A DNA stretch of 64,000 bases from Cylindrotheca closterium. Lineage: Eukaryota > Bacillariophyta > Bacillariophyceae > Bacillariales > Bacillariaceae. The notes below the pieces were generated by a model. It saw only the letters and a list, made by a program, of their open reading frames with translations, was not told the origin of the DNA and did not search any database. Made by a program: the position numbers and the translations under genes. Shown piece after piece: positions 1,450 through 49,648 of the stretch; the stretch's first letter is position 1; each line of letters opens with the position of its first letter. The stretch is from positions 59,058-123,057 of the forward strand of contig CAKOGP040002169.1 in the NCBI GenBank assembly GCA_933822405.4, read 5' to 3'.

Positions 1450-3170
1450 TTATTCAGTTTGATTCAATACGACTTGCCCCACAAGATCCTCTCTTCCATC
1501 ACCGGAAGCGGGGTCCTCAAAGTCATCTACAATCGCTTGGTGGCTCTCTGTGGCGGGCGACTTTTCCTCTGGCCCACTATCTGCTACACGATTCAATTCT
1601 TTGAGCAAAAAATCTGTGGCCATGATTGCAGCACTGGTCTCGGGACCGCTCAAAGCAGCAAAGGTAGTAGCAGTAGTAGTAGAACCAGACAACCGTTTCG
1701 ACAATGCTTCCAGCACAACATTGACAAGGTCACCTTGTTCAATTTGTCTCCCATCAACCTTATTGGCAGCTGGTGTTGCATCATTCGAAAATGAAGTATC
1801 ATCCACCTTGATGGTTCCTGATTCTTGAAAATCGCGAGCAACCCTCAAGGCTTCAATTTCTTTTCGGTTCACTTTCACATCTTTCATGGCTTCCCAGTCT
1901 CGCAGTCGAAGGCAGGTTTCCAATGTGTCCACACCGACGCTAGAAAGAGTCTTTTCATTTTGCTTGTACACCAGTCCGGTGGGAATACCCTTTTGTGCCG
2001 CTCGAACTTGGCTCGTCCGAAGAATATTGATCATTGGCCATGGACTTCGACGGGCGTAGTTGGCTGCAGCTCCGATGCCTTCTCTGGCGCTTCCATCACG
2101 GAAGGACCAGTTGGGATGAAAGAAAACTAGTTGAATAGAAGACTCCAAGTCCAATGCAGACAGGGGTTGTGTGAGTGTGGTGCTGAATTGCTCAAAAATC
2201 TCAATCTGATCTATACAGAATTCGGGTGCCACAAGAAGAGTTGTGGAAAGTTCGCTCTGGTCTTGGTTTTCCACTCGCACAACTTCTGCCCAGTACCGAG
2301 CATACATATCTTCCAAAGAAGTGCATCGATCAATACAGTAAAATACAGGACCAATAGGCAGTCCAGCCTCTTCTGCACCCTTGGAGAACGGACAAATTCC
2401 CATGTCAGAACAGATCTTTTCAACCCAAGCCTTCGATATGTCAATGATCTTGTCATCGTCATCTGGAATCTTGTCTACAATTTCTGGATACTTGTCCACT
2501 GCCAAATCTTCATCGTCGACTCCTTCGTAGTTCCAATCGTCGCCATCGTCCCAAAAGGGATCGTAGTCAAATTCATAATTATCTGGATCTTTGTCTGGGT
2601 TTCGAAAGGACTTGACAGTAAACCCCTTCACTTTTCCGCCACTGATATATGGCTGCAAGGTGGTTGTGACTCCAAAATTGTCGGTTACATCTTTGCAACC
2701 GTCGAGATGCGCAGTTACAAGATTTAGATACCGTGGTGTGAATTGGGATTCCATATCTGGAAATAGAACTGTTTCGGATTCCTATGTAGTCATAAAGAAA
2801 GGTACAACAACAAGAGGTTAGAAAGCATTTGATCCTGCAAACACCACGGGCATGACCGTCACATCAATGGATCACTTACTCCGCGAACCATGCTGTTTCC
2901 TCTTGCAATCAGTTCCCACAGACCACACAAAAACTTGGATGTACTATTTGCATTGTCAACAAGATAAGAGTCCTCGATGTCATCCGCAACATCATCTTGA
3001 TCCTGGCTAAATTTTGATACAGAAGCCTCTGAAAAAAGGGCGAAGATGCTGCTTTCGATTGAACTTCCCAGATGCAGACTGGTCTCGCCGAAGGTATTGG
3101 GTGTTGTGAATGGACTCACTAATGATGGCAACACAGAAATGGCCATCAAGAGAGTTAGTTTCGTCATCAT
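1450..3170 (-). CDS. DUF1415 protein with signal sequence (2 exons)
   Basis: Two exons, 2880..3170 and 1450..2781, encode 540 residues. The 98 bp intron starts GTAAGTG, ends TAG, and is phase 0. Exon 1 begins MMTKLTLLMAISVLPSLVSP, a signal-peptide-like N-terminus. The 3' exon holds the diagnostic DUF1415 pieces: MGICPFSKGA near residue 225, corresponding to the bacterial CPFA motif, and FHPNWSFRDG near 319 followed by ANYARRSPWPMINILR, corresponding to the bacterial FHPxY...NRSPYPxLHLLRE block. A strongly acidic insert (FDYDPFWDDGDDW) lies before the domain. The C-terminal 130 residues carry no recognised domain. DUF1415 proteins have no established biochemical role. The signal sequence suggests the plastid or the secretory route, but no clear ASAFAP motif is seen. 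Confidence 0.82.
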
Positions 3171-3466: not shown

Positions 3467-6400
3467 ATGCCTACCGTAAACAGTAACACGAGAGCAATGA
3501 AGCGCCATTTATCGGACAGAAGCAGTATGACAAGTCAATCGTTCCTGAAAAGAGGACGAATACGCTTTCTCCGTCGTTGCATTCCACTATTCGCAATCCT
3601 GTCAGCAATATTTCCTTTCATTGTCCATCACACAACTCAATTCGGAAGTATAAGTCATGACACTAGCTTAGAGACATTACAAGAACCAAGAAAGGCGTCT
3701 ATAATACGTAGAACGGATCTGACAGGCAATGCTGAAGCTGCGCCACTACTAGGGCGGACAAAACGCATACTTCATAATTCAACACTCCAGAAATGGTCGA
3801 ATGACCGAAACATAGTTCATGTCATCTACAGTCGATTCATGCAGCACCAACCAAATCTCTTGGAACTTGGATTGGCAAGATTACAGCTTTTCAAAGCGAT
3901 ATGTCTTCCAACTATCAAGCAACAGACCAATCAGCAATTTTTATGGATCATCCGAACGGATCCTGAAATACATCCGACCTTGAAGGAGAATCTTTTAGAG
4001 GATCTTCAAGATCTACCCAACGTCGCTCTTGTAGGTTCCAACGAGATTAAGAAAGGTTCTCTGGACGACGGATTTCGAGGTGGAGATGCTATCAAAGACA
4101 TTACAACCTCCTCTCTTTTCCTTGGGAATATGGACCTAGTTCAATCATATCATCTGAGTGCCCGAAAGAACACGGTCTTGGAGACAAACCTGGATGCTGA
4201 TGATGGCTTTGGCCTGAACTTTGTCGAGACTGCGCAAAGGGTGACCGAATCGAAGTTTCGAAAGAATAAAAGGAAGACAGCATGGCTCAACCTGTGTGTT
4301 GGTCGCCATCTAGAGTGGCAATACTTCGCCCCATGGGATAATACTACAGACAGGGGATCTCTGAACCTAGGTAGCACACATATATGTGTTACCGCTGGCT
4401 TGAGTTGGGCTACCATGGCGAACGCAGAGCCAGACTTCACTGAGGCTCATCACCTGATCAAACAGGAGACCAAGGAATGTAAGAATGTGAAACGAAAACA
4501 TTTGGGGTGCTGGGATGAATTACCTGATAGCGAACTGTTGGTGATCCGTGCTCGCACGCCTACTTCAACTGGAATGGCCCGAGTTTTAACACCAGAATCG
4601 GAGTGGACGCAGGATCAAGTTGATGCTCACAGCGGGCTATGGCCAATGCTTCCAACCTCATTTGGGATTTCGACGGCAGACATCATAACATCCCACAAAT
4701 ACCTGACAGATCATATGGAAGATATCGTGGGAGATAACCTGAGAGGTCAATGCCAAAAAGACCATTCCTGCTCGGAAGGAATCAAGAAGAAACTCAAGAA
4801 GATCATATACAAGGATCGCATGTGGAAAAACAAGCATGATGTTGTTCATGTAATCCAAACTTCAATCGATTCGTTGCTGAGTGCGAATGTTCTCCGGCAA
4901 TTCAGTTTTGATTCTTTGGAGGCACAGACGTCGTACGAGTTTCTATGGATAATTCGGGTGAAAGAGGTATCAGATTCACAGGAATTGAATGATTTTTTAA
5001 CCAGCAAAATTGTGGGCAAAAGTCCGCTGAACATACTTGTGGTACAGTCTGATCAGACATCAACAGTCAACTTTCGAGTTCCACAGGCAATGGTCGGCAT
5101 TTCGGAGGAAACCTTGCTATATGGGGAGATGGATATCCTTGAGGCCTTTCACGAAGCGGCGCAAGATCGAACTCTGGTAGAAACATTCCTGGAACCGCAC
5201 GATGCTCTCAGCAAATCCTTTGTGGAAGAAATACAAGAATCAACTGTGATGCAACTAGAGACAAGCCAAATGATGGACGATAAGAATGTGTGGTACTACC
5301 GATGCACCTCCAAGTTTATTGAATGGAACTACTTCACTCCAGAAGGGTACGATAACGATGCAGGATTTCTGAGTCTCGGAGGATCAGACGGCATTCAATG
5401 CGTCGAAAACCCAGGTGTGACTAGAATAAGTCGTCCCGGAGCAGAAATTCCATACTCGGGTGATGCAAATCAAATCTCAGAATGTCATACTTTGGTGCTC
5501 CTTCAAATCAATAGCGGGTGCTATGCGCCCATGTTTTCAAACGAAACTTTGACGGCACGAGCAATAATTCCTGAATCAGTAGAAAAGCCAGTACCGAGAC
5601 AGGTAGAAGCAAGCGATTTAGAGGTCCTGGGTGAAGAAGACAAGCACCTGCGGAGCGTGCTTCGAGATTCCATTAACATACATCCCTCTGCGGTTGAGAC
5701 AATGCGCTCATACATCAAGAAAAATCAATGCAGCGATAGTCGGACGTGCAATGTCGAATGGGATAGTGAGCATGGGGTAACGCAAGTGATCCAGACTTCA
5801 CTGAATGATGAGTCACTGTTTCTTTATTGGCGGTACTTTTGCTTGTCGCTGGAAGCTCAAAGTACAAATAAGTTCTTGTGGATTATCCGCGTATCTCTGG
5901 ATTCAGTCCTGATGGAGAAGTTGATGACAGTGATTCGGAACATTCCATTGAACGTGATCGTGGTGAAGTCAGCTGTCAGTCCCGATGTGTCCTTCCGACA
6001 TGTGGAAGCTATCAAGGATATTCGAAATGAAACGCTGGCGTACGGGGACATGACATTGTTGGAATACTTTCATCTCAGTGCGCAACGTCAGCCGCTTCTG
6101 GAGACATTCTTGAGACCCACCGAGGGCCTTTCGAAGCAATTCGTTGCAAAATTGCAAGAGTCAGCAGCTGCTAAAGCCAAGAATAATACTGGCGTAAGCA
6201 ATCAAGATTCCTGGTATTACCGTTGCGCATCCCAAGTTGTGGAATGGCGAGTAATTGCGTCAGAAGATCCTCTGTTTGAAGCCGGAAAAGCGAGCCGTGC
6301 AAACGATGACACCGAAGCGTGCATGAATCGTCCAGGAACTACGAGAATAAGTCTTCCTGGAGCGGATATTCCATCTGGGGATCGGAAACGTACTGTTGAT

Positions 6401-9400
6401 CGAGCATGCAGTGGATCGATTGGTTTGTTTCGAAGCGGTTGCTCGGCGCCCATAAAGCAGGGGATAAGGGCAGCCCGGGTCGTAACAACAGCACAAACAG
6501 AGGAACAGCAGCCGGAAGTTGTCAACGCAACTGCTTATTTGGAGGAGCAGAAAGGGTGGTATGATTTCCTTGGGGAAGATTTTGGTATCTATCGGATGTC
6601 GCTATTGCAATTGGTTTCCAAAACCAGAAGGAAAGCATTGTCATCTGCACCAGCCATGTGGCAGAATCAGAGGAATATTGTCCATGTTGTCTACAGTCGT
6701 TTTATGCAACAACAAGGATCTCTAATGGAACTAGGGGTAGCGCGACTGAATCTAATGAAGGCACTTTGCGTTCCAACGGTGTTCGAACAGACAAACAGCG
6801 ACTTTCTGTGGGTCGTTCGTACCGACCCAGAACTGCTTCCCTCACTGAAGGAAGGCCTGATTGACGTGCTGAAAGGGATTCCTAATGTTGTTTTAGTTGC
6901 ATCTGACGTTGCCGTCGACGGGTTCAGCGACGGTAGTTTCCGCAAAGACAGTGCGATGGGCGAGTTCAGAAAAGAATCATTGTTGCTTGGAGACTTGAAC
7001 CTGCTTCGTTCATACCACGAGGCTTCAAAGAGTAATACACTTGTAGAAACAAACCTGGATACTGATGATGGCATTGCTTTGAACTTTGTGGAAAGTGTTC
7101 AGGCACATGTGCATTCTCTGTTTGATGTGGACCGAGACCAGGATGGTTGGCTGCAAATCTGCATAAGCCGTCACATGGAATGGCATGTTTACTCGCCTTG
7201 GGAAAAGCGGTCTGACAGAGGTTGCATGTTGCCTGGGAAGGGCCGATCGTGCATTAAATCTGGATTAAGCTGGGCGACGCAACCGAAATCGACGCCCGAA
7301 TTCTCGAAAGAGGTGCATAACTTGAAAGAGTATGTAGCCAGTTGTTATGTTGGTAATTCAACCGAAAATTCGCTTTTCAAGGGATGTTGGGTCAACGTGC
7401 AAAGGCAGGACCCTGAAAATGATGTCGTAGCGATCAGGTCGATGACACCGGCTTCATCCGGTTTGGCGAAAGGAACGATCTCGTCCTTTGATTGGAGCAT
7501 CAAATCTTTGCTCTTTGACAAGAGTGCTTGGTCGCTTTTGGATCCGTACTTTTCGATTCGACCAGCGGAAGTCAAAGAGCTCCGAAAGTACTTGGTTGAC
7601 AATCAGGAACAAGTGAATACAGACAATGAACGAAGCAAGTGCACCCACGAGAAGACATGTGCTGGAAAGTGGAAGAATAAACACAAAGTTGTTCATGTTA
7701 TCCTTACGGATGTGCAAGATCCAAATTTTTCCGATCCGTGGCATCGTGTGAGTTTGTCATCACTCACAAGACAGTCCACGTATGAGTTCCTCTGGATCAT
7801 ACGCGTTGCAGACTTCACGGACTCTCGAATTATTGAAACTATACTGCGGCCCATGGAAGAAAGTCCATTCAAGGACAAAATAATGGTCGTGAACTCGTCT
7901 AGTTTCTCCTTCGAGTCTTTCCGTTCGCCTCAAGCCATTGCTGATATTTCTGAGAGCAGTCTCCTTCATGGAAATGTGAGCATAATACATGATTACCATC
8001 AAGCTTCGCAGACCAGACCACTTCTGGAAACCTATTTGCAGGCAACTGAGGGGCTGACAAGAACATATGTCGATGAGATACAAGTATCTGCATCTTCATG
8101 GGGTCGAGAGAACGATGCGAATGACGGAGACACACGTATGTGGTACTATCAATGCGTCCCAGAGTATATGGAAGCCAATTACAGACACCCCCGTGGTGAT
8201 TTTGTTGAAAACGTTTTTCTTCGGACTATTGGACTCAACGAAAGTAGGTGTGTGGATCGTCCAGGCACAACAAGGGTCAGTCTACCGGGCAGCAAGATTG
8301 GCGTTGACACAAGTTTGCAGGATGCGCAAGAGTGCAGCCATTACAATAACACACCAAGGATTGGGTGTTTCGTTCAAGTGGAGGCGCTCAAAACGCTAGC
8401 CCTACGCTTGTGTCTGCCGAATCAAGTCCAACAAGCCACGTCACTGAGTGAAAGCGAGATAGTTGCTCTTGAAAAGCAGCAAATGCGATTTGTGATGCAG
8501 TTACGGCTTCAGTACAGCGTCTTTCCCCCAACGCTGACAACAATGAATCGGCTTATTGCCGACAACTCGCGTCAAAGTATCCATGTTATACATACGTGGA
8601 TTCAAGACCAACAGTCCATTCTAACGTGGCGTATGCTTAGCATTGATACTCTTGTCAAGCAGGACGACCAAAATTTCCTTTGGATCATACGCACAAACAT
8701 CACCGACGTAGATGTTATCAAGGGCATATCGTTTCCGATTAGGTTCAATTACAATGAGCCAGACAACATATTCTTAGTGCGATCAAATAGGAAGACGACG
8801 GGGATCGATTTCCGCAGGCCCGAAGCCCTAGCCGATGTGACGGAAGAAACACTTGTGCGTGGAAAGCTCAAGAATTTACGAAATCAACAAAAGGCGGCAC
8901 AAGGTCGAACGGTTATAGAGACATATCTCAGTCCAACTGATGGTCTAAACACCGGATTTGTGAGGCAAATACAGGACTCTGTCTCATCTGTTATGCGTTC
9001 CAGCAATTGGGTTGGACATAAGACTAGAATCGGCGATATGACGAATGAGAAAGAGTCTTGGTATTTCCAATGCGCCGACAAACATCTGGAATGGACTTTC
9101 TTTTCACCACAAGGTGACACGCGAAAGACTGGATACCTTAGCATGCGCAGAGCAACGACAAACGCGTGCGTGTCTAATCCAGGGGCGAGTAGAGTCAGTT
9201 TTCCTGGTTCCGAAGTATCGTATGAAATGAACTTTTCTGGCATCAAAAGCTGTACTGCCTTTCACACCAACGGTTGCTCTGTCCCATTTTCTTCGAAACA
9301 TGTAATGGCAGCACGTGCAGTGATTCCAGATTCGGTCGAAAACGCACCACTGCCGGCCAGTCCTGGAAACACGGGAAAGAAAATACCAGATCAGAACGAA

Positions 9401-10456
9401 CTCTTGGATGTAATGTTTACTGAGTTTGGTATGGGACCGAATGGGTTCGAAATCTTGCGAACCGAAATGCACAAGTTGCAATGCAGCGAGGAGGGTGGGT
9501 GTTTGGGTCGATGGGAGTCACCGTTTGGGGTGACGCACGTGATGTACACATCGCTGCGGGATCTACTGACAACCGCAGTGTGGAGACAATTCACCTTTGC
9601 GCTTGAGCAACAAACCAACAACAAGTTTTTGTATATCATTCGAGTATCACCAGACAAAGATATTCTCAAGGAAGTTATCAAGCCGTGCATCAAGACCCCC
9701 TTGAATATTATCGTTGCCAAGTCGACAAACGACCCATCCATGGATTATGACTTTCGTCAACCAGAAGCCATTGCAGATTTGAATGCCAACACAATAGTCA
9801 CGCTGAATGGTGAGGAACCAGAAATGCTGAAGCACTTTCACGAGAGTGCTCAAAATAGCACCCTTGTGGAGACATTTTTACAACCCGGTGATGCGCTGAA
9901 AAGCACCTTTGCAATGGAAATTCAAGATTTTACCGCCACGCACATCAAGAAGCGACAAACCCCTAGCGTGTACTATCAATGTTCTCCGACTCACTGGGAA
10001 TGGAACTACTACACTCCTGACGGGCACGACATGGACCACGGTTCCCTCGAGATCGTCAATGCGAGCACGTCCCAGTGTATGGACCGTCCTGGCAAGACAA
10101 GGATCAGTTTACCAGGTGCACAAATAGACGCTTCCTTCCCCGGTCCATCGAAACTTTGTACGGAATCCTCAATCGAGCATGAATGTTACTTGCCTATGAA
10201 ATTCTCTGATCAAAAATATGTACCGTACGGAGCACGAGTCGTTGTCCCAGAGTTTTTGAAGGACGAGTCATCCTCCTTACCGCATCCACATGATGACATT
10301 ACGACTGCCAATCACATTCAACGTCAAATGCAGGCTTTCAAGCAAGCTTTCTCTGTGAAACCGCTTCCTTTGAAACACATGAAACAAAAGATCAAAAATC
10401 TTTTGGAAAAGGAATTCAACGCTCTGGAGAAGAAATCGAAACGCCAATTACGATAA
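3467..10456 (+). CDS. Seven-domain tandem rhamnosyltransferase-like protein
   Basis: An uninterrupted 2329-residue ORF. Residues 35-55 (CIPLFAILSAIFPFIVHHTT) after a basic tail form a type II membrane anchor, so the bulk should lie in the Golgi lumen. Seven copies of one domain follow, starting near residues 108, 452, 762, 1064, 1399, 1701 and 2014. Each opens with VHVI-type strands, then a (Q)xxxxFLWIIR block, then an ETxL/ETFL block, then a W(Y)xxC...EW block. The pattern matches the putative rhamnosyltransferase family PF11316 (assignment by eye). Copies 1 and 4 keep SRFMQ near the start and an acidic motif NLDADDG or NLDTDDG (near 241 and 1195). The other five have FLEPHDA, FLRPTEG, YLQATEG, YLSPTDG and FLQPGDA, and are probably catalytically weak or dead. 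Copies 1 and 4 also lack the RPG(x)TRISLPG block that ends the other five. Substrate and product are unknown. Nearby Golgi-type genes are unlinked in strand. Confidence 0.85.
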   Translation: MPTVNSNTRAMKRHLSDRSSMTSQSFLKRGRIRFLRRCIPLFAILSAIFPFIVHHTTQFGSISHDTSLETLQEPRKASIIRRTDLTGNAEAAPLLGRTKRILHNSTLQKWSNDRNIVHVIYSRFMQHQPNLLELGLARLQLFKAICLPTIKQQTNQQFLWIIRTDPEIHPTLKENLLEDLQDLPNVALVGSNEIKKGSLDDGFRGGDAIKDITTSSLFLGNMDLVQSYHLSARKNTVLETNLDADDGFGLNFVETAQRVTESKFRKNKRKTAWLNLCVGRHLEWQYFAPWDNTTDRGSLNLGSTHICVTAGLSWATMANAEPDFTEAHHLIKQETKECKNVKRKHLGCWDELPDSELLVIRARTPTSTGMARVLTPESEWTQDQVDAHSGLWPMLPTSFGISTADIITSHKYLTDHMEDIVGDNLRGQCQKDHSCSEGIKKKLKKIIYKDRMWKNKHDVVHVIQTSIDSLLSANVLRQFSFDSLEAQTSYEFLWIIRVKEVSDSQELNDFLTSKIVGKSPLNILVVQSDQTSTVNFRVPQAMVGISEETLLYGEMDILEAFHEAAQDRTLVETFLEPHDALSKSFVEEIQESTVMQLETSQMMDDKNVWYYRCTSKFIEWNYFTPEGYDNDAGFLSLGGSDGIQCVENPGVTRISRPGAEIPYSGDANQISECHTLVLLQINSGCYAPMFSNETLTARAIIPESVEKPVPRQVEASDLEVLGEEDKHLRSVLRDSINIHPSAVETMRSYIKKNQCSDSRTCNVEWDSEHGVTQVIQTSLNDESLFLYWRYFCLSLEAQSTNKFLWIIRVSLDSVLMEKLMTVIRNIPLNVIVVKSAVSPDVSFRHVEAIKDIRNETLAYGDMTLLEYFHLSAQRQPLLETFLRPTEGLSKQFVAKLQESAAAKAKNNTGVSNQDSWYYRCASQVVEWRVIASEDPLFEAGKASRANDDTEACMNRPGTTRISLPGADIPSGDRKRTVDRACSGSIGLFRSGCSAPIKQGIRAARVVTTAQTEEQQPEVVNATAYLEEQKGWYDFLGEDFGIYRMSLLQLVSKTRRKALSSAPAMWQNQRNIVHVVYSRFMQQQGSLMELGVARLNLMKALCVPTVFEQTNSDFLWVVRTDPELLPSLKEGLIDVLKGIPNVVLVASDVAVDGFSDGSFRKDSAMGEFRKESLLLGDLNLLRSYHEASKSNTLVETNLDTDDGIALNFVESVQAHVHSLFDVDRDQDGWLQICISRHMEWHVYSPWEKRSDRGCMLPGKGRSCIKSGLSWATQPKSTPEFSKEVHNLKEYVASCYVGNSTENSLFKGCWVNVQRQDPENDVVAIRSMTPASSGLAKGTISSFDWSIKSLLFDKSAWSLLDPYFSIRPAEVKELRKYLVDNQEQVNTDNERSKCTHEKTCAGKWKNKHKVVHVILTDVQDPNFSDPWHRVSLSSLTRQSTYEFLWIIRVADFTDSRIIETILRPMEESPFKDKIMVVNSSSFSFESFRSPQAIADISESSLLHGNVSIIHDYHQASQTRPLLETYLQATEGLTRTYVDEIQVSASSWGRENDANDGDTRMWYYQCVPEYMEANYRHPRGDFVENVFLRTIGLNESRCVDRPGTTRVSLPGSKIGVDTSLQDAQECSHYNNTPRIGCFVQVEALKTLALRLCLPNQVQQATSLSESEIVALEKQQMRFVMQLRLQYSVFPPTLTTMNRLIADNSRQSIHVIHTWIQDQQSILTWRMLSIDTLVKQDDQNFLWIIRTNITDVDVIKGISFPIRFNYNEPDNIFLVRSNRKTTGIDFRRPEALADVTEETLVRGKLKNLRNQQKAAQGRTVIETYLSPTDGLNTGFVRQIQDSVSSVMRSSNWVGHKTRIGDMTNEKESWYFQCADKHLEWTFFSPQGDTRKTGYLSMRRATTNACVSNPGASRVSFPGSEVSYEMNFSGIKSCTAFHTNGCSVPFSSKHVMAARAVIPDSVENAPLPASPGNTGKKIPDQNELLDVMFTEFGMGPNGFEILRTEMHKLQCSEEGGCLGRWESPFGVTHVMYTSLRDLLTTAVWRQFTFALEQQTNNKFLYIIRVSPDKDILKEVIKPCIKTPLNIIVAKSTNDPSMDYDFRQPEAIADLNANTIVTLNGEEPEMLKHFHESAQNSTLVETFLQPGDALKSTFAMEIQDFTATHIKKRQTPSVYYQCSPTHWEWNYYTPDGHDMDHGSLEIVNASTSQCMDRPGKTRISLPGAQIDASFPGPSKLCTESSIEHECYLPMKFSDQKYVPYGARVVVPEFLKDESSSLPHPHDDITTANHIQRQMQAFKQAFSVKPLPLKHMKQKIKNLLEKEFNALEKKSKRQLR

Positions 10457-11578: not shown

Positions 11579-13070
11579 ATGGCAAGCGGACGAAAGCTTG
11601 ACATTGCCACGGATAATCGTGAAACGGGTCATGTGAACAAACATGTTGAAGACGACGCTGTTTCTTCCCTTGGCGATGCTTCCCCAATGAACATTGCGGA
11701 GGTACTGCAACAACGTCGACAAAAGGCAACCTATTGTAAATTGGCTTCTTTCTTTGGGATTGCCATATGCTCGCTTATCTTCAGTTTGTTGAATAACAAA
11801 TTGAATGAATATATGAACAAGCCTGCATCAACTGCGACCAATAATGCAAAGGAGTATTCAGTTGAAGACATGCGAACCCTCCATTTTGAACGAGTGGCAT
11901 CTTCGATGGCTCGGCCTTTTTTGCCGGTGGCATCCGACATCTGGTGCATCGATGCACGGTTAAAGTATGAACAAGCCAAGCGGCGACCAATGGGGCTATC
12001 GTATTTGAGAATCCCACGAGCCGCCTCCTCGACTCTCTCTGGGATTAATCAGGTGTGTACCAAGAAGAATGTGTTTGGATGCAATAGAATAAAGATTCCT
12101 GCAGTACTGTAACATGCTGAGAGGACAACTGAAAAGTTTGTACTCACATTCATATTTCAACCCTCTCATCTTGTGTCATCAGAGAATTGCTCGCAACTTT
12201 GCAGCTCGGACTGGACTCAAAAAGAATTGTATTCGACACGATGGAAGAAAGGCAGGCCCCTATTACAGTGCCAGAGACCCCCTGAGTTTCTTATGGACCT
12301 TTGTTCGTGATCCAACCCAGCGTGCCATGAGTCGTATTGGTGCCTCCCTCAAGAAACAGCGTGGAATACTACACAATACCATGCCCTTGTATGATTATTC
12401 CGATGAGATTGTGGAATCCCTCCAGACAGCGAACGATGTCCAATTTGGTGTCATTAGTGCTGGCAGAGGGGGATTCCAGCTCCAATACAGCATGCTTTCC
12501 ATCATCGAAGAATGGAGTGCGTTCAATTCCAGCGAACCTACCAAAGTTAAGGATCCAAAAAAGGTACAAGGGTATGTACGGGAAGTTGTCAAGGGGTACA
12601 ACTTCATTGGCTTGGTGGAGCGTTTTGATGAATCTCTAGTCGCTTTGCAATTGCTTATGGGACTTGAACCAAACGACATTCTCTATTTTGCAATCAAGAC
12701 GCGGAAACAATTCGAACTGAGTCCCAAAGAAAAGGTGTGTTTGGCGCCATTGGACTGGAACGAGTTGCTCTCAGAAAAAGTGAATCAGCACTTGGCAAGT
12801 GACGAGTGGTTTGCGCAAAACTATGGCGACCACCTCTTGTACCAAGCTGCTAATATGAGCCTTGACCAGACTATCCTAAGCTTAGGGCTAGATGTCTTTT
12901 CCACAGCATTGAAAGACTTTCGAAGGCTGTTGGACAAAGCCAAATCAAGCTGCGACCCAGTTTTTCCTTGTTCTTCCAATGGAACTCTTCAAGTGGAAGA
13001 GTCAAACGAGGACTGTTACGAAGGGGCTTCGTGTGGATACAAGTGTCTAGATAGCTTACCTTTGCATTAA
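11579..13070 (+). CDS. Sulfotransferase-like type II membrane protein (2 exons)
   Basis: Exons 11579..12052 and 12183..13070 encode 453 residues. The 130 bp intron begins GTGTGT, ends TCATCAG, and is phase 0. The join gives ...SGINQ-RIARNF... and puts the two halves of a sulfotransferase fold in one frame. Residues 53-72 (CKLASFFGIAICSLIFSLL) are a signal anchor. LSYLRIPRAASSTLS at 140-154 resembles the PAPS 5'-phosphosulfate loop, with R-I-P-R-A-A in place of the usual P-K-x-G/A. FVRDPTQRAMSRIG at 198-211 matches the 3'-phosphate binding motif (FxRDPxxRxxS). The C-terminus is Cys-rich. The likely role is transfer of sulfate from PAPS to a glycan or protein in the Golgi. The acceptor cannot be read. 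The unusual Arg in the first loop leaves some doubt about activity. Confidence 0.72.
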
Positions 13071-38484: not shown

Positions 38485-41225
38485 TTACACGGAACATTGA
38501 TCACACATGGTGCTCTTGTTGCCGCAGTCGCAAATTGTACAATCGCTTTTGAAATTCACAAGTTCTCCTCCATCAAACACCCAAAGCTTACAAGTGTTTG
38601 CATTCATACTTGTGAATCCATTGTTTTGAACCTCAAAAAGATTCAATTCTGTGTTGAATTTGTGGTTTCCTGGAAGTGCACCTATGATAACAAAATGAAA
38701 AAGGTTAGAGTCGATGTCAGCGTCACATGCAACATAAGACCCATTTCTTTGAGAGTTTTAGCAGCACTCACCCGTGAATCGATTGTCGTTCAGTAGTAGG
38801 GAGTGTAATCTACCATCGCCTGCGTTTATGGGAACTGAGTTGCCCGAGAAGTTGTTGTGGTCCAAGTTCAAATGTCGAAGACGAACATACTCGGTTTCCA
38901 AATCACTCGGAACTGTTCCTGTGAACTCGTTCCGCCCCAAATCCATATAGTAAAGATGTCTAAGCTTGAGGTTGGCTGGAATGGTACCGGTCATTTGGTT
39001 GTTGTAAACATTGAAGTATCCTGTGACGTTAAGAGAGGTATGAATAGGATAATTGATGATGAGTGAGTTGCCGAAATGTGACAGTTGGTTTCAAGCTTCC
39101 GCACAAGCTTCGTATACTTACGGATACCAAAGATTCCTCTTGAATTTGATTTCATCGTCGACGGGATGGATCCTGTCAACCGATTGCTGTGCAGAACAAA
39201 ATCTGTGAGATTCCACAGATTGATAATTTTGTCGCTGATCGTTCCGTCCAAGCGATTTTTGTAGAGGAATAGCTTCTCAAGGGACACAGCATCGTAAAGC
39301 TCTTCCGGCAAGGTTCCATAAATATTGTTCTTGGAGAGATCCATTTGTGTCAACGCCTGCAACAAACCAACTTCAGATGGAATGGTCCCTGCCAGACCTT
39401 GTCGTCCAAGGAGAATGTCAGTGACTTCTTGGTTGTCGTTGCACGCCACTCCTTTCCATTCGCATTCGTCTTGCCCGAACTGACCCCATTCAATTTCAGA
39501 CTGCCTGGAAGTTCCGCTGACTCTATTTGCAAATGCTAAATTCATATTCATCAAAGCAAACCGCTGAACAGTCTTTGGAGTAAGAAGAATTTCACCATTG
39601 CCTCCATTTGCTGTGGCTTCCTCCATCAGCTGGGCGACTGCTAGCTTTGCTTCGTCAGATTCAATGGTAATCCCAAACTCATCCTCGAGATATATCTTGA
39701 TTGGTGGGACAACTGTTGGCTGCGGAGTGGAAGGACTTGTTGGGCTGGGTGCAATGGGATCGTCTAAGAATGGATCAAAAGGAGCAAATCCACCACTGTT
39801 TGTTCCCCGTTCTGGGTTGGCGTATTTCTCGCGAAATTGTACCAGAGACCAAATTAAGAAAACAAGCGTTACCAAGAGCACCAATAACACAGCACCGCAA
39901 AATTTCTTCTTGTGCCTTTTCCATTTCGTGTGATTTCCACCTTCGCATCCATAGTATTTGTCCACTGGATCGGTTTCCAGCGATTTGCTCCTTGGTGCCT
40001 CTTCGTCTATATCCACATGATCAATCTTCTTGTCACGATTATCTTGACATCTAGGTGATTCTTTCTTTACCGCAGTCTTCTTGATGTGCTTTTCCTGACC
40101 AGTTGTGGACTTTTTGCTCAGATGAGGTGAATGAGATCGCTGTGTTTGTTCGTTCGTTTGTTCATTCTTATTCATAACTGTAGCCTGCCCTCGAGGAGTA
40201 CTACGGTTCCCCTTTTGTTCAACAGTTTTCGATTGAACGTGTTGGGGACTATTTGGTTTTCCCTCATTCGTTTCCGCTTTGGCCTTCGTCACTGCAGTCT
40301 TCGCTAGAGTGCTAGCTGCACCCATTTCTCCAAAAGTTTTCGATTGAAGTTGCTGGGAACTGTTTGACTTTCTCTCATTCATTTGCGCTTGGGCCTTCAC
40401 AACTGAAGTCTTCGCTGGACTACTAGCTGCAACCTTTCGTTCAACAGTTTTCGATTGAACCAGTTGGGGGCTGTTTGGCTTTCTCTCGTTCGTTTGCGCT
40501 TTGACTTTAGTTTGCTCTGGTGTGCTACAATGCTCCTTTTTCGGTTGCTTGACCTTTTCGTCCACATCAGTACTTTTTACTTGAGGTGACAGAATTGGTT
40601 GTGATTGTTTGTTCGTCTCCTCTGCCGCTTCGCTCTTTTTGGGCAGCTCTGTTTTGCTCGTCCTTTTGGCTTTTTTCCTATCATCAGCACTTTTGGATTT
40701 TCGATTTTGGATATTAGGTCCTTGTTCATCTACTTGCGTGTCTTTCAACAATGTAGCTTCACTTTTTGGTTGCAATAGACTTGTAGTCGCCTTTTCACCA
40801 TCGCTCTTTTTTGGCTGCTCTCTTTTGCTCTTCCTTCTGGATTGTTCCTTCACATTTGAGCTTTCCGATTTTCGCTTTTGGCTTATAGGTGCGTGTTCTT
40901 CTGCTTGCTGCTTGTCTTTCGTCACTGTAGCTTCACTTTTGGGCTGCACTTTATTTGTACTCGCTTTACGACCAGCATCACTCTTTTCTTCGGATTGACG
41001 GTTTTGGCTTCTTGATGATCGGCGCTTCTCTTGTTTCTCTGCTTTCTTCGCAGAGCGCTCAGTTTCTTTTCCGTCATTGAAAGTTGGATTTTTTCCCTCC
41101 TTTACTGCAGTGGAAGTTGGTGATGTCTTCTTCACTGGGAGGATGGTCTTTCGTTCATTGTGTACTTGGTGTACCTGTACTTGTTCACGACGCCGCTTGA
41201 AAGCAGCAGCCAGCTCAGGATCCAT
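38485..41225 (-). CDS. LRR membrane protein A (3 exons, long repetitive cytosolic tail)
   Basis: Exons 39122..41225, 38772..39020 and 38485..38681 encode 849 residues; introns are 101 and 90 bp, both phase 1. It starts MDPELAAAFKRRREQVQ. Residues ~1-430 are basic, Lys/Gln/Ser-rich and repetitive. One span lies at ~432-452 (FCGAVLLVLLVTLVFLIWSL); the basic residues before it predict N-in, LRR-out. The stalk is very short (SPTSPSTPQPT). The LRR N-cap is IYLEDEFGITIESDEAKLAV, then DECEWKGVACNDN. Six or seven LRRs follow (LTQMDLSKNNIYGTLPEEL; FLYKNRLDGTISDKI; VYNNQMTGTIPANL). The terminal Cys module is SDCTICDCGNKSTMCDQC. There is no kinase domain. It is probably a cell-surface recognition or adhesion protein. 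Confidence 0.82.
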
Positions 41226-41493
41226 GGTGGCTATCGAAGTGAAGAAATGATGAATCGATGTCTCTTGTATGGATGAATGATCATAGAAGAAAAAAATATT
41301 TTCGTTGCATGATCTTGTAACCAAAACATGACGCCCGAATTCGTCGACTTCGAGAGTGTTTGCACGATTTGGTCAAAATCCGTGATTAAAAACACTACTA
41401 CCGCGCCGGGGGTTGGGATCTTATTTAGTGTTTTTAAGGTACTGGTACTACTGTAGGTTTATTTTTATTGGCATATACGGTACCTCCAAGTTC

Positions 41494-43873
41494 CTAGTTG
41501 TAACAGTGTTTACACATCTGATCATTTTTTCCACAGTCGCATACGTTACAGTCACTCTTGAATTCAGTCAGTTCACCAGAATTCAAGACACTGAGCTTAC
41601 AAGTTTGGTCATCCATGCTTGTAAATTGATTGTTCTGTGCAGTAATTTGCATTAGCTCATTGATGAACATGTGATTTCCTGGCAATGCACCTAGCTCGAA
41701 GTGGAATGTAAAGTGTTAATATGCTAGAAGAATAAAATACGCCAACTGATTCGTCACACGAATAGCACTTACCCCTGAACCGGTTGTCATTCACAGCAAG
41801 GGCTTTAAGCCTGTTGTCTCCGGCGCTCATTAAATCGGAAGGAAGCGTTCCCGTGAACTGGTTGTGGTCAATGTACAAGTATCGTAGACGGACAAATTCA
41901 GTCGCAAATACTGATCTTGGGATGGTCCCTGAAAATTTATTTCGTCCTAAGTCCAAATAAAACATCTGGCGTAGTCTGGAACCTTCAGCTGGAAATGATC
42001 CAGTCATTTGATTGTCATACACATTGAATGTGCCTTTACACAAAGTGACCAATGATGAAAACAAGACAAAAAGTGAAACAAAATACCGAAGGTGAGAGGA
42101 GCACTACAGAGTCTGTTGCTACAATGCAGGCAAGTTCCATACTCACGAATTTTGTAGATCCCACGACCACCGGAACGCATTGTAGATGGAATACGCCCTA
42201 TATACCATCGTATGGTAGACATATAATTTATGAGAAATGAAACACAAAGAGACAGAAGTTTCGAAGCAGAACTTACCAGAAATCCGATTGCTGCTGAGAT
42301 TGAAATCCGTAAGACTCCACAGTTTGATAATTTTGTCGCTGATTGTTCCTGTCAAGCGATTCTGATACAGGAATAGCTTCTCAAGGGACAGGCAATTGTA
42401 CAATTCTTCTGGAAGCTTGCCCTGAAGATTGTTGCTTGCAAGGTTCAATTGTGTCAACGCTTGTAACAAGCCAATCTCACTTGGGATGCTCCCTTGCATT
42501 CCTTTTCCTAAAAGCCGAATGTCAACCACTTCTCGATTTCCATTGCATTTGACCCCAGTCCAAGAACATTCATCTTGTTTGAATCGACCCAAATTTCCAC
42601 CGGCGCTGCTATCAAAGAGTGCCAATTCCATATTGATCATTGCGTATCGTTGAACAAGTTTTGGTGTTAGAGATTCATTCTCATCTGCCTCCTCCGCAAT
42701 CTGTGTAATAGCTTGGTTAGCTTTGTTGGATTCGACTAGGATTCCAATGTCATCTTCCAAATAGCTTTGTAGCTTCATTTTGAACGTTTCCGTAGGTCGT
42801 CGAGTTGGTGGATTTGTTGGTGATACCGTTGGAATTCGGGTCGGTGATTCTGTCGGAGACTTGGTAGGGCTTTGTGAAACAGTTGGGCGGTCACTGGGTG
42901 TCATTGTCGGACGATTGCTTGGTTGGGTTGTGGGCATTTCCGATGGTGCATCACTAACGGTAGGACGTGTAGATGGTCGGTTGCTAGGCACGTTCGAAGG
43001 AGCATTGCTTACAGTTGGACGTTTGGATGGGCGCTCGGTAGGGCTCTTTGACGGTACTTCGCTAGGTCTGATGGTAGGCCGGGCGGATGGTTGGCTTGTA
43101 GGTCCCTTCGTGGGTGACTCGCTCATCGTCGGGCGACTGCTTGGTCCACTTGATGGCTTGCTAGATGGCGATGCACTTAATGTTGGACGATTGGATGGTT
43201 GGCTAGAAGGCCTCATCGTTGGCGAAATGCTGACAGTCGGAACACCGCTGATAGTAGGAATCATGGTGGGAGATTTCGAGGGAGTTCTTGTGGGAGGACT
43301 AGTTGTCGTTGGAGAGCTTGTGATGATAGTTGGATTTGGACCCGAACTGTTGGCAGGATCAGTAGCATTGAAACGTGATGTTTTGAGGACAGTATCAGTA
43401 GTGTCAAAAAAGAAAAAATTCAACACTGCACCTGCGCACAACGCCAATAAGACCATGCCAAACACTAGTTTGATAGGCGTTCCGCACGATGCTGACTTTT
43501 TTTCAAAAACAGGAGCCCTTCCTTCGCTTTGTTCCTTGCTGGTGCTTTCATTGCTTTCCATTTCATGTTCGTCGGTGGCATTTCCTTTGGTTGAATCTTT
43601 GTCGTTGTTCGTAGGCACCTGTTCCGCAGGAGACTCAACATCCACCACCATGTTCACTGCTTCTTTATTAAGTTGGTCGACTTGTGGAACAGGAAGCTCC
43701 ACAGGAGGTTCGTCGCCAGCACTCTCGTCCAAGGTCGTTGCATCCTTATTCTCAGTGAGCGATTGTTCTGCAGGCTCCTTTTGATCCATCTCCTTCTTTT
43801 CTGTTTCTGGCGCTAGATGGGAGTCTGAAGACGCGGTTATTTTGTTTGTCCCTTGCTGAGTAGGATGATTCAT
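41494..43873 (-). CDS. LRR membrane protein B (4 exons, Pro-Ser-Thr stalk)
   Basis: Exons 42277..43873, 42147..42197 (51 nt), 41773..42033 and 41494..41690 encode 701 residues; introns are 79, 113 and 82 bp, all phase 1. A cytosolic acidic tail (1-130) leads to a span at ~134-155 (LVFGMVLLALCAGAVLNFFF). The ~180-residue stalk repeats RPT(x)S(x)SP and RPSxxP units. The N-cap is KLQSYLEDDIGILVESNKAN, with DECSWTGVKC. LRRs include LTQLNLASNNLQGKLPEELY, FLYQNRLTGTISDKI, VYDNQMTGSFPAEG and YIDHNQFTGTLPSDL. The C-terminus is FKSDCNVCDCGKNDQMCKHC. It has no kinase. The broken copy E at 51 kb derives from this gene or a close relative. Confidence 0.85.
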
Positions 43874-44201
43874 ACCGGCTGCTTCTTCTGCTAATGGTAA
43901 ATAGTCTTTTACATTGATTTGTCATGGGATGGTGAAGATCGATTGATGCATTTTTCGTCGTGTAGTTTCTATTTTCGGTCAAAAATACCAAAAATACCAC
44001 CATTAATTTTTCAAAACGCATTCGCACGCTTGCCAACGGAAATTCGCAGTACCACATGTACAGGGTTCAATCTGTTCGTGCTTTAAAATTGCTCACCTAA
44101 ACTACTTAGTTTTTTTACAGAGTTCTAGTATGCATGCTGTTACAGACAAGAAACTAATGTATGTATTTAAAACAGTTACACTCTGAAAAATACCCCCATC
44201 A
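43874..44201. other. Gap between LRR genes B and C
   Basis: A 328 bp stretch upstream of LRR gene B and downstream of gene C's stop. It should hold B's promoter and C's 3' UTR. AATACCAAAAATACCACC at about 43983 is a short direct repeat. No gene is seen. Confidence 0.35.
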
Positions 44202-46995
44202 TTAGTTGTAACAGTTTTTACACATCTGATCATCTTTCCCACAAACGCATACATCACAATCACTCTTAAATTCTGGCATCTCTCCAGTTTCCATGACATT
44301 GAGCTTGCAAGTTCGGTGAATCATGGTTGTGAATTGATTGTTCTGTGCAGTGTATTGAACCATTTCCGTGATGAACGTATGCCACCCGGGCAGTGTGCCG
44401 GTGAGCTTATTGTCATTCACAGTGAGGACTTGAAGCCTACCATCGCCAGAATTTATGACGTTGCCCAGGCTTCCACTGAACTGATTGTGGTCCAGATGTA
44501 AGTGACGTAACCGAACAAAATCCAAGAATGTCGGCAAGATTCCTGAAAATCGGTTTCGTCCAAGGTCAAGATAGTATAATTGCCTGAGATTGGCTCCATC
44601 TAGGGTTGGAATTACGCTTCCAGTCATTTGGTTGTCGTACACATTAAATGTGCCTGTGAAATCAAGCATATATTGTGAAGGTTATGCGATGCAACACATC
44701 ACAAGAAGAACAATTCTGAAGATGAGAAGGGTATAATCAGATTGGTTCCATTGGCACAACGTCATACTTACGAATTCTGTAGATTCCACGACCGTTCGAT
44801 CGCATTGTAGATGGAATGCGCCCTATATCATCGTATGGTGGACACATTTTATAAATGAGAAATGAAACACAAGTGACCAAAGTTTCGAAGCAAAACTTAC
44901 CGGAAATCCGATTGCTGCTGAGATTGAAATCCGTAAGACTCCACAAATTAATAATCTTGTCACTGATTGTTCCCGTCAAGCGATTCTGATAGAGGAATAG
45001 CTTCTTAAGGGACACGCAATTGTATAATTCTTCCGGCAAACTTCCTTGAAGCTTATTGCTCGCAAGGTCCAATTGTGTTAGCGCCTGTAGCATCCCAATC
45101 TCACTTGGGATGCTGCCTTGGAGATCTTTTCCTAAAAGCTTAACATCTGTCACTTCTCGATTCCCATTGCACTTGATACCACTCCAAGAACATTCGTCTT
45201 GATTCAATGCACCCCAATTGCGCTGGTTTTGTCTTACTATTGGATCAACGAATCCACTGGCGCTGATATCAAAGAGTGCGAATTCCATGTTGATCATTGC
45301 GTATCGTTGAACTAGTTTCGGTGTCAGCGGCAATTCGCCATCTGCCCTGGCTTCCTCCAATAGCTGAGCGACAGCCTGGTTGCCATTGGTGGATTCAATT
45401 CCGACTCCAAAGTCATTTTCCAAGTAATTTCGCAGCTTGACTCCAAGCTCGGGAATGGGGTCAGGAGGTCTAGTAGGTGGAGATGTGGGTCTTGGTGAAA
45501 CAGGAGCAACTGAAGGCGAAGCAGTGGGAGGCGGGGTGACAGGCAGGGTGACAGGCAGCCGGGATGGTGTCGTTGTTGGAACTCTTGTCGGAGACTTGGT
45601 TGGACGCATCGTTGCTAGATCTGTAGGAGATGTGGTTGGAACTGGCGGCGCTGTCGGGTCGAGTGTAACTTGTGAAGGGGCAACTGAAGGTAACGAGGTG
45701 GGAGTCCTTGTTGGTTGGACAGTAGTCGTGGATGGAGCAACGCTTGGTCGAATAGTGGGTGCCCTTGTGGGGGGTTCGAGAGCGACCTCCGATGGCAAAA
45801 TGCTTGGGTGATCAGTGGAAGTCCGAGTCGGTGCAAGAGTAGCATCCGACGGCGCAGCGCTTGGGTGATCAGTAGGAGTCCCTGTCGATGCAAGAGTGCC
45901 ATCCGATGGCGCAGCGCTTGGGTGATTGGTGGGAGTCGGTGTCGGACGATTGCTTTGTTGGATCGAAGGCCCCGTAGATCCGGTCGAGGGTGACTCGCTA
46001 GGTCTAATCGTCGGACGCTTTGATAATTCGACGGTAGGCCCGATTGAGGGACTTTCGCTGACAGACGAAAGCTTGGATGGTTGACTGGAAGACACAGCGT
46101 ACGTTGCATCGCTGATAGCAGGAACACCGCTGATGGTCGGAAACAAAGAGGGAGCCCGTGTCGGGATTCTTGTGGGACGACCGCTCGACATTGAAGCATT
46201 TGTACTGCCCGTCAAGGTTGTACTTGGAGAAGAACTCGGCGAAAATGAGTCCGAGCTGCCACCGCTATTAATATCATTTAAAAGTGATGATGTGGTTGTG
46301 GTATCGGCGTTGTTGTTGAAGACAAGGAAGTACAACAAAGCGCCTCCGCACAATATCAAAAATAGCACACTAAATACAAGGTTTCGGCATGTTCCACGCC
46401 GCGTCCGCGATTCTTCGGCTTGACCAACAGAAGGCGACTCGTTGTTGTCACTGCTGATGGTGTTTCTCTTGGTTTCTGTCTCATCCATGGTTATGGCATT
46501 CCCTTTGGTTGAATCTTTGTGGCTGTCTGCAGGCGCTTGCTCCGATGGAGACTCAACATCCACCATCGCCTTTGCTCTTTCTTTCAATTGGTCAGCGTCT
46601 CGAACGAGCTCCTCGTCGTCTTTCTTCTCCTCTTCAGCAGGAAGGTCCACACCTTCGGTTGACTTTTGCTCCACAGGGGGTTCACTATCTCCTAATTCAG
46701 CAATGTCGTTACTTTCAGTATACATTTCCGGCTTGTTGCTTTGTTGCTGGTCCACAATTGTGGCATTTCTCTTGGTTGGATCCTCCTTGTTCTCAGTCAC
46801 AGGCGATTCTCTGAAAGGTTGATCCGTATCGATCTCCTCCTTTTCCGTCGCTGATATTTCAATGTCTTCCTTCCTGACATCGTTTCTGCTTGGACTTTGT
46901 TCCGTACGGGAATCGGCAAATTCAACTTCAGACAGATTTGGACCGTTCTCGTTCTCTGTTGATCTCTCTTTCACCACCAATGACTCCGTATTCAT
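44202..46995 (-). CDS. LRR membrane protein C (3 exons, longest stalk)
   Basis: Exons 44901..46995, 44773..44822 by printed base count or 44772..44822 by frame (51 nt, the latter preferred), and 44202..44653 encode 865 residues. Introns are 78 and 118 bp, phase 1. The cytosolic tail is ~200 acidic residues with the span at ~203-222 (NLVFSVLFLILCGGALLYFL). The stalk (~240-520) carries THPS and PT repeats (TDHPSAAPSDATLAPTRT). The N-cap is KLRNYLENDFGVGIESTNGN, with DECSWSGIKC. LRRs include LTQLDLASNKLQGSLPEELY and FLYQNRLTGTISDKI. The C-terminus is FKSDCDVCVCGKDDQMCKNC. Exons 3 and 4 of gene B are fused here. The 78 bp intron is open in frame, so unspliced RNA would add 26 residues. Confidence 0.85.
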
Positions 46996-47513
46996 CTTCT
47001 CGTTTTGGTTTCAGGCACTGCCTTGACCTCTTTAGTGACAGCGTCTTCTTCTATCTTTCTTTTACGACTAGTAGGTAGGATGATTCTTCTTCATACACAA
47101 TTTTTCCTCTTCTCATGATTCTTCATTATTTTTTATTGCCAAAGATTCATTTGACATGATGTTGATTCATTCATTTATCTTTTCAGCCCGCATGGCAACA
47201 ATGCTGACACACCGTTCGAACGGAAAGATTTGATAAGTTTCTTCTAAATGGCAACATAAAAGTCTTCGACAACGGAAGAAGCATCCTCGACCGACTAGTG
47301 CGAATGAATATCTCTTTTAAGTGCCAAGAGATTCGATCCATGTGGATCCAATCCCCCTCAACTGCCGACAGATGGGAGATGTGAAAGGACTCGTCCCAGC
47401 TACGCCGTTTCCTATATTTGACAGAGTTCTATAGTCTAATTACAATTGTTCCCAATGCACACTTCACAAGTGCATCCATTCCATTCCAATGCACTATACT
47501 ACAATACAATACC
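46996..47513. other. Gap between LRR genes C and D
   Basis: A 518 bp stretch holding the promoter and leader of LRR gene C and the 3' UTR of gene D. There is an A/T-rich stretch near 47098-47160 (TTCATTATTTTTTATTGCC). No ORF of interest is seen. Confidence 0.35.
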
Positions 47514-49648
47514 CTAATCGTAGCAATTTCGGCACATTTGGTTGTTCCTTCCACAAATGCATATATCACAATCACTCTTGAATTCAGGCAGTTCTCCCGT
47601 TTGCAACACATTGAGCAAGCAGGTTCTTTCTCCCATGCTTGTGAATCGATTGTTCTGTGCTGTGAATTGCACCATTTCCGTGATAAACATGTGATCTCCT
47701 GGCAAGGCGCCCGTGAATTGGTTGTCGTTCAAACTCAATGTCAAGAGTCTACCGTCGCCTGCATTAATGACATTTCCCACTGGCCCAATGAACTGATTGT
47801 GGTCCAGATGCAAGTGACGTAGCCGAACATATTCCGTGAAGTCCGGCAGGATCCCACCAAATTGATTCCGTCCAAGATCAAAATTGAACATTTGCCGTAG
47901 CTTGAGGTTATTTGGAATGGTGCCGGTCATTTGGTTGTCAAATACGCTAAAGGTTCCTGTCAAAATAAAACAAGAATAGAGAACAACAACGTTTTGTGGT
48001 GAGCCAAATGGAATCAATCATAACGATACTGTAGCAATGGATCATGGATCATGATCGTCAAACAATACAGTATATAGTACAACATACAACATCGTATACA
48101 CTTACGAATCTTGAAAATACCTCGACCGCCCGATTTCATGGTAGGTGGAATGGGCCCAGTTAGTTGATTGACCGAAAGGTTGAAATCAGTGAGATTCCAC
48201 AGCCGTTCAATCTTTTCCGAAATGGTGCCGCCGAGTTGATTTTTATAGAGAAAAATCTTTTGCAGCGACAAGCAATTGTACAATTCTTCTGGCAGACTTC
48301 CTTGGAGCTTGTTGTCTGCAATATCAAGCCAAGTCAGTGCAGAGAGCAACCCAATTTCGGTCGGAATCCTTCCATTCAAATTGCGTTGTCCCAATTCAAT
48401 TTTAACCACCTGTTGATTGGAATCGCAAGTAATGCCTCGCCATGCGCATTCGTCTTGATTAAAGGCACCCCATCTCGAATACAAGGATTGCAACTGTCGA
48501 CGACGACCGTTATCATTATTATTATCATTGTCCATAAGAATCGTATCCACCACCGAATCACCACCATTATCATTCTTAATTGGATCAAAGAAATCACCGA
48601 CAATGCCATTGTTGCGTGTTCCAAAGAGTACCAAATCCATTTTCAACAAGGCAAATCGTTGGGCCAATTTGGGTCGCAAGGCAAGCTCACCATTGCCCCC
48701 ATCGGCCTTGGCTTCTTCCAACATGACTTGCAAGACTTGCTGATTATTTTCATTCCCATTTGCACTAATCCCAAAATTGTCTTGCAAATATTGAGTCAAG
48801 GGTTGTTCAAAATTGATCGTGGGAATGGGCGTGGGGAATTGCGTTGGATTTTGGGTGGGACTGGGAGTGGTGGGAGTCCGGGAGGGAGCTCCCGTGGGAG
48901 TACGGGTTGGGGGTGCCGGAGCCATGGTGGGCAGTCCAGTGGGAGCCATGGTGGGCAATCCGGGCGTGACTGTCGGGTTGGGTGTCGTGGGTTGTGCGGT
49001 TTCGTCTTCGCTGGGGTTACCGTCCCCACCGAGAATTCCATCACCATCGGGAGTGAGAAGGGGGGGAGCATGACTAGCAGCAGCTTTCTCAGTTTCGTCG
49101 GCTCGGCCAACGAAAACAATCAAAAGAGCCACAATGGCAATCAAAAGTAAGACCAAGACGCAACAAAAGATATTCTTGTACTTTTTGAATAGAGTCGGCG
49201 AAGTGGATAATTCTTGTTCCGCTGTTGTTGTCGTTGTCGTTGTCGGGTGGTGGTCGTTGACTTTGACATCCATAGGCTTCTCCTCCTCCTTGACAGGTGC
49301 TGCCCTGTCTTTTGCCTGCTCTTGTTTCTCTACTTCTGGATCATCCTGGTCCTTCTTTTCTTCTTGGTGGTGGTATTGCTGGTTCATCTTTGGTCGTTGC
49401 CTATTCGTTTCAGTCATTAAAGATGATTCCTCAGTTGCTGGTGGCGGTGGTGGTGGTGGAGGAGGAGGAGCTTCAACATCATGTCCATCATTTTTTGCTG
49501 TTGATGGTGGTGGTGGTGGTGGTGGAGCTTCGACACTGCCATCATCATCGTCCAGTTTTCCACGATTGACTGTCGCTCCATTCTTCTTGACAGCTGGAGT
49601 CTTCGTCGCCGCCGTCTTCATTGGAATTTCTCCTACTTCTGGTTCCAT
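47514..49648 (-). CDS. LRR membrane protein D (2 exons)
   Basis: Exons 48106..49648 and 47514..47956 encode 661 residues; the single intron is 149 bp, phase 1, at the I|R position shared by all four paralogues. The cytosolic tail has two Pro runs of seven and ten (VEAPPPPPPP). The span is at ~156-180 (NIFCCVLVLLLIAIVALLIV). The stalk is short (TMAPTGLPTMAPAPPTRTPT). The N-cap is LTQYLQDNFGISANGNENNQ, followed by an Asp/Asn-rich insert and DECAWRGITC. LRRs include LTWLDIADNKLQGSLPEELY, FLYKNQLGGTISEKI, VFDNQMTGTIPNNL and HLDHNQFIGPVGNV. The C-terminus is FKSDCDICICGRNNQMCRNC. It lacks a kinase and has the simplest gene structure of the four. Confidence 0.85.

Follow-up and report, generated by a model that had tools for sequence, protein, structure and literature searches.

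The closest described counterparts of the gene reported here are single-unit proteins of Pfam family PF11316 (Rhamno_transf), pairs of an active and an inactive glycosyltransferase (GT), and polymerases with tandem GT-A domains. A D-x-D motif, the mark of metal-dependent GT-A enzymes, is the usual state in this fold, and LARGE1, K4CP and heparosan synthase 2 contain two active domains each. In PMC12748766, CHPF, the D-x-D-less partner of active CHSY, is assigned a stabilising role; PMC9145935 traces the name of the PF11316 family to one tested sequence. We analysed 64,000 nucleotides of the diatom Cylindrotheca closterium (hereafter the window; positions 59,058 to 123,057 of the forward strand of contig CAKOGP040002169.1, assembly GCA_933822405.4), in which an open reading frame (ORF) at 3467-10456 encodes seven tandem GT-like units in a single chain. 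Judged by their conserved columns, one unit is canonical, one is divergent and five are degenerate. No description of such an array was found in the open-licence literature, in which one paper names PF11316, a search that leaves most subscription papers outside.

The ORF begins with ATG, has an in-frame stop directly upstream (3464) and contains no stop other than its own end. The units span amino acids 108-2323 and are joined by short linkers at most (Table 1). A profile built from these same seven copies, which reports their mutual likeness and not remote kinship, detected 7/7 of them in the ORF, each with a domain E-value of 4.2e-116 or lower. Pairwise identities among the units are 23-41%, so the array is old and not the product of recent duplication or assembly stutter. 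The null result of Tandem Repeats Finder in the ORF is uninformative, the longest period being 500 bases and the units about 950. Hydropathy analysis left amino acids 35-53 as the sole anchor candidate, every other window scoring 1.6 or less. The protein has 16 sequons, 43 cysteines and this one hydrophobic window; it may be oriented as a type II protein, with its units in the lumen, and located in the Golgi. Thus the original prediction, read from the letters alone, of seven units in one ORF behind one membrane anchor was borne out by the 2,329 codons without a stop, the profile and the predicted anchor. The LDADDG and LDTDDG motifs and the SRFMQ start that it had noted in copies 1 and 4 are present as well.

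D-x-D occurs only in units 1 and 4 (A1 and A4) and is gone from units 2, 3, 5, 6 and 7 (B2, B3, B5, B6 and B7), all of which carry PG-x-[TS]-R-[IV]-S-x-PG. A1 and A4 exceeded the PF11316 cut-off of 23 bits (79.4 bits for the whole ORF). None of the five B units matched PF11316 at E<=1 or reached the cut-off of any Pfam family, so their kinship to A rests on alignment and fold. The AlphaFold2 models of A1, B2, B5 and B6 matched solved GT-A glycosyltransferases; on these grounds the B units look like pseudo-glycosyltransferases and not like another fold, and A and B share one predicted fold as far as they were modelled. Whole-chain Foldseek searches with the A1-B2 model gave as best matches three proteins that have two GT-A domains each, LARGE1, heparosan synthase 2 and K4CP, at a TMq of about 0.2 and a root-mean-square deviation of about 19-25 A; the single domains therefore match, whereas their arrangement does not. 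The structural match to RmlT tied with GT-A enzymes for other sugars, and rhamnosyltransferase is a family label here. Matches in a viral structure library were to phage and giant-virus GT proteins, with a TMq of 0.16-0.25. The 'Multiple glycosyltransferase domain containing protein' of the algal giant virus CeV-01B (Foldseek rank 48) resembles the array by name in having several GT domains, but its TMq was only 0.24. A sequence search of the PDB with the A1-B2 alignment yielded 0 matches, and NCBIfam had no family for any of the three proteins tried.

The order of units was compared in an alignment of 273 units, from which seven fragments below the limits had been excluded and 32 units of five database proteins removed as presumed duplicates of ORFs in the C. 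closterium genome (305 to 273). The order A-B-B-A-B-B-B, first read in the window, was found in 12 of 12 distinct seven-unit proteins. Proteins with four whole units showed A-B-A-B in five of six cases; the sixth (P0021) is A-B-B-B, preceded by the end of one more unit, and is consistent with the back part of a seven-unit array. The remaining multi-unit rows of the array kind fit as parts (BBABBB, ABBAB, ABB, AB and BB), and P0014 (1,794 amino acids) and P0144 (552 amino acids), encoded on one 34,495-base contig, look like two parts of another seven-unit gene. The layout A-A occurs in P0068 (Amphora), and B-A in P0022 (Epithemia) and P0023. On the evidence of these alignments, the array order is a conserved design. 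Two MMETSP transcripts (P0002 and P0013) carry seven-unit ORFs labelled complete, in keeping with one gene instead of several.

By PF11316, the C. closterium assembly (47.6 Mb) contains at least four seven-unit genes (in the window and on contigs C190, C201 and C6), at least one four-unit gene (C6) and at least three single-unit loci (C33, C57 and C201). Three further array loci of this genome are open over 2,359-2,422 codons. On contig C6, the four-unit locus (L012, 3073-7782, minus strand) and the seven-unit locus (L013, 1922-9187, plus strand) lie about 16 kb apart in opposite orientation. Proteins of the PF11316 type usually have one domain, as had been stated at the outset: the best 120 of 336 matches gave 108 A-type single-unit rows, including at least one array fragment (P0037, partial, beside unit 1 of C6b in FastTree), versus 23 longer matches. 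Single-unit diatom proteins such as Phaeodactylum P0127, Seminavis P0099 and Epithemia P0052 resemble A1 and A4, which lie above the Pfam cut-off, and a motif set is common to the 108 rows. Unlike them, the array has seven units per chain, five of which are below Pfam detection and without D-x-D.

As a reference for what the units have lost, we used the 32 columns conserved in at least 95% of the 108 single-unit A rows, numbered as in unit 1. Units of the A1 class (12 rows) had lost none of the 32. Those of the A4 class (16 rows from seven-unit arrays, four of these incomplete) retained D-x-D-D, D58 and R31 in 16/16, and showed substitutions T202 to K and R256 to M in 16/16, T259 to A in 14/16 and absence of His221 in 16/16; in single-unit rows, by comparison, His221 is present in 107/108 and Arg256 in 106/108. 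Because the second half of unit 4 has none of its three near-invariant residues His, Arg and Thr in 16/16 arrays, unit 1 alone has a canonical sequence, and the two catalytic units of the original prediction are not supported as worded there. Both A units of the four-unit proteins are canonical, with His221 and Arg256 in 10/10. A His one residue beyond 221 was seen in four of the nine A4 rows inspected, the window's included, and may be a shifted ligand in those four. According to PMC12748766, a His completes the metal site of CHSY3 together with D-x-D.

The B units, considered as a core set of 105 out of 109 rows (P0022, P0023, P0147 and C57 omitted), had jointly lost 17 of the 32 columns (less than 15% left): R16, Q19, Q21, L24, L27, A30, R31, D58, P59, L61, D136, D138, H221, R256, T259, G262 and C322. 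They kept 11 (more than 80%), among which the shared Cys, Trp and Gly residues stand out: Q46, E132, Q150, C170, W177, G190, C200, G204, C231, C241 and R254. Several of the lost positions presumably lie at donor- or metal-binding places of the GT-A fold, and the kept set looks structural. The conserved columns suggest that the five D-x-D-less units are likely inactive.

FastTree, which took 271 of the 273 units (two short rows left out), united 103 core B units in a single clade with a support of 0.995, or of 0.927 when P0022 and P0023 are included. In IQ-TREE, run with a mixture model on 93/273 units after removal of five motif columns, a branch with 100/99 support set 49 of 51 B units apart; the other two, from P0022 and P0023, clustered with A units, next to the A of the same protein (89/80), and a single origin of all 51 B units was not rejected (p-AU 0.189). 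These groupings and the p-AU value indicate a single origin of the B units in the arrays, the window's five belonging to one old clade without the D-x-D site, and perhaps a further, separate origin in the B-A proteins. Since A rows were defined by D at 136 and 138, the presence of D-x-D in 164/164 of them holds by construction; the independent evidence for the division of A and B is the tree without motif columns and the other columns. A4 formed a clade of its own (100/100). B3 and B7 were grouped with 99/96 and B2 and B6 weakly with 78/45; we infer a block duplication of B-B, which fits both pairings.

Among the rows sampled in IQ-TREE, the two-unit A-B proteins P0034, P0035 and P0036 branched just outside the arrays. 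Like the arrays, they have an A unit followed by a B unit of the array-B clade; unlike them, they consist of one pair only, as far as the contigs show. They plausibly show the state from which the arrays of four and seven units arose. P0022 and P0023 also join a D-x-D-less unit to a canonical A, but with B first, and their loss of D-x-D may be independent (with A in IQ-TREE, with B in FastTree). As a bacterial outgroup for the A/B root, a pattern gave 86 and 48 genome-contig and 50 viral-contig stretches, none of which was confirmed by tblastn; the trees are therefore unrooted. B is taken to be derived from A because D-x-D is the usual GT-A state and single-unit A rows are many. No free-standing B was found in a profile search restricted by protein length and shared words, so that others may exist; it returned B units side by side without A (P0144, P0145 and P0146) and two proteins placed among A units (P0072 and P0147). 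P0147 (426 amino acids) is a single-unit relative in which D-x-D-D has changed to N-x-E-D, an independent event.

The gene encodes one seven-unit chain behind a predicted anchor, and we consider it on balance probable that this chain works as a glycosyltransferase of the Golgi, with A1 as its predicted transferring unit and the B units as pseudoenzymes that would retain the acceptor glycan or serve as a scaffold. A1 would be the sugar-transferring enzyme. A4, with the changed second half of its putative pocket, might use another acceptor or donor, or only bind the donor. The B units could provide several glycan-contact sites that keep acceptors bound between transfers, or could scaffold the active unit or bind extracellular or cell-wall glycan. 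A needed but inactive partner has a precedent in CHPF, as it is the DxD-less partner of an active GT. The human CHSY-CHPF pair resembles the array in this respect, and CHSY3-CHPF (9o4g_B) was among the Foldseek matches; it differs in that each partner is a chain of its own with two GT domains, which belong to other GT families, whereas the array is one chain of one family. The product is probably an extracellular or cell-wall heteroglycan. As reported in PMC4584364, the extracellular polymeric substances of C. closterium and the frustulin glycan of C. fusiformis contain rhamnose, xylose and galactose, which makes a role in such a glycan plausible.

Several observations weigh against this proposal. 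The A4-B5-B6 model was weak (pLDDT 71.2, with large parts of A4's second half below 50), leaving the pocket of A4 beyond structural judgement. Were A1 and A4 both active on different sugars, taking turns in the manner of LARGE1 or K4 chondroitin polymerase while the B units acted only as spacers, the protein would be a bifunctional polymerase. The D-x-D-D, R31 and D58 retained throughout A4, its separate clade, as expected of a changed specificity, and the whole-chain matches of A1-B2 fit this explanation. We nevertheless regard it as rather unlikely, given the consistent absence from A4 of the His221, Arg256 and Thr259 equivalents, with A1 intact by sequence, and the agreement of those matches in domains alone. 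LARGE1, K4CP and heparosan synthase 2 do share tandem GT-A domains in one chain with the array, but the latter has a single canonical unit beside one divergent and five degenerate ones, in an arrangement that does not superpose on theirs.

The acidic motif of the B units was not lost as a whole, as had been supposed, since its last position is D or E in 103/105 core units; the RPG-TRIS-PG-type ending was read correctly. B units also have conserved residues of their own, namely an Arg (95/105), a Tyr-Tyr pair before the shared Cys (95/105 and 91/105) and the R, S and P of PG-T-R-I-S-x-P. For these reasons an unusual metal-independent activity of B is conceivable, and metal-independent GT-A enzymes exist (GT14). 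Active B units with a rebuilt site are still improbable in our opinion, because the losses exceed the metal site by far and include the L24-R31 stretch, the D of RTDP, His221, Arg256 and Thr259. As a rule B units evolve faster than A, chiefly units 3, 6 and 7, which fits weaker constraint: identities between the window and C201 are 65 and 63% for A and 65, 52, 50, 35 and 39% for B. That they are functionless, decaying copies carried in frame by A1 is very unlikely, considering that five B units are found in 12/12 seven-unit proteins, at identities to the window's down to 32%, in unchanged order and with B-specific conserved residues. Shorter ORFs are also labelled complete, P0012 with six units and a start inside B2, and P0030 and P0032 with one A-B pair (850 amino acids); shorter forms or truncated transcripts therefore exist, and they would suit a gene-model or assembly artefact with neighbouring genes read as one. 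We give such an artefact hardly any credence. The frame is uninterrupted in genomic DNA, in the window as at the three further loci, and the complete-labelled seven-unit transcripts already contradict it for relatives.

A bolder form of the preferred reading, an anchored chain with one predicted transferring unit, is offered tentatively and with considerable doubt: the protein might be a single-chain glycan assembly track, in which one catalytic unit and another that handles the donor are accompanied by five pseudoenzyme copies, retained as an invariable row of glycan-binding stations that set the length or repeat of a diatom polysaccharide. If so, pseudo-glycosyltransferases would be a route to a channel-less processive enzyme; if the B units scaffold or hold the chain, the protein would be an unusually elaborate glycan-building machine. 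How length and order of template-free polysaccharides are controlled is an open question, for which the array offers a built-in test through its B units, and diatoms contain a natural series (A, A-B, A-B-A-B and A-B-B-A-B-B-B). One family supplied an enzyme together with five retained degenerate copies, in an order unchanged in paralogues and relatives. Adhesion and carbon export both depend in part on the glycans of diatom cell walls and exopolymers, and to our knowledge the enzymes that make these glycans are largely unknown.

Table 1. Features of the seven-unit array and the observations on which each assignment is based (positions in the window)
Feature	Position	Strand	Basis
ORF, 2,329 amino acids, seven tandem GT-like units	3467..10456	+	Uninterrupted frame; relatives share layout
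Predicted N-terminal membrane anchor, amino acids 35-53, type II by position	3569..3625	+	Best hydropathy window, 1.85
Unit 1 (A1), canonical	3788..4789	+	PF11316, 45.7 bits; 0/32 near-invariant columns lost (A1 class, 12 rows); SRFMQ start
LDADDG of A1, putative metal/donor site, amino acids 242-247	4190..4207	+	Motif read; alignment columns
Unit 2 (B2), degenerate	4817..5764	+	No Pfam family at E<=1; AlphaFold2 fold GT-A-like
Unit 3 (B3), degenerate, in one clade with B7	5753..6652	+	No Pfam match; trees
Unit 4 (A4), divergent, D-x-D-D retained, second-half His/Arg/Thr altered	6653..7675	+	PF11316, 44.5 bits; SRFMQ start
LDTDDG of A4, amino acids 1197-1202	7055..7072	+	Motif read
Unit 5 (B5), degenerate, separate branch among B units	7664..8563	+	No Pfam match; trees; predicted fold
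Unit 6 (B6), degenerate, weak grouping with B2	8552..9511	+	No Pfam match; trees; predicted fold
Unit 7 (B7), degenerate, in one clade with B3	9506..10435	+	No Pfam match; trees

The upstream neighbour of the array, on the opposite strand, encodes a DUF1415 protein (1450-2754, minus strand; E 6.4e-36). Beside the array, two adjoining frames on the plus strand (11579-12112 and 12114-13070) perhaps belong to one gene with an intron or a frame break. The second of them resembles galactose-3-O-sulfotransferase (PF06990, E 6.6e-6, 25.7 bits, below the cut-off of 27); a sulfotransferase-like neighbour would suit a sulfated-glycan setting without proving it. Farther along, four ORFs on the minus strand (38991-41324, 42143-43873, 44737-46995 and 48014-49648) form a tandem family of leucine-rich repeat proteins in 38991-49648, with a leucine-rich IP[ST]E[IV]G[LM]L[QS]ALT stretch after acidic or P/T/S-rich parts. 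The ORF at 60003-61139 (plus strand) showed a weak NXPE4_C-like match (E 1.8e-4, below its cut-off).
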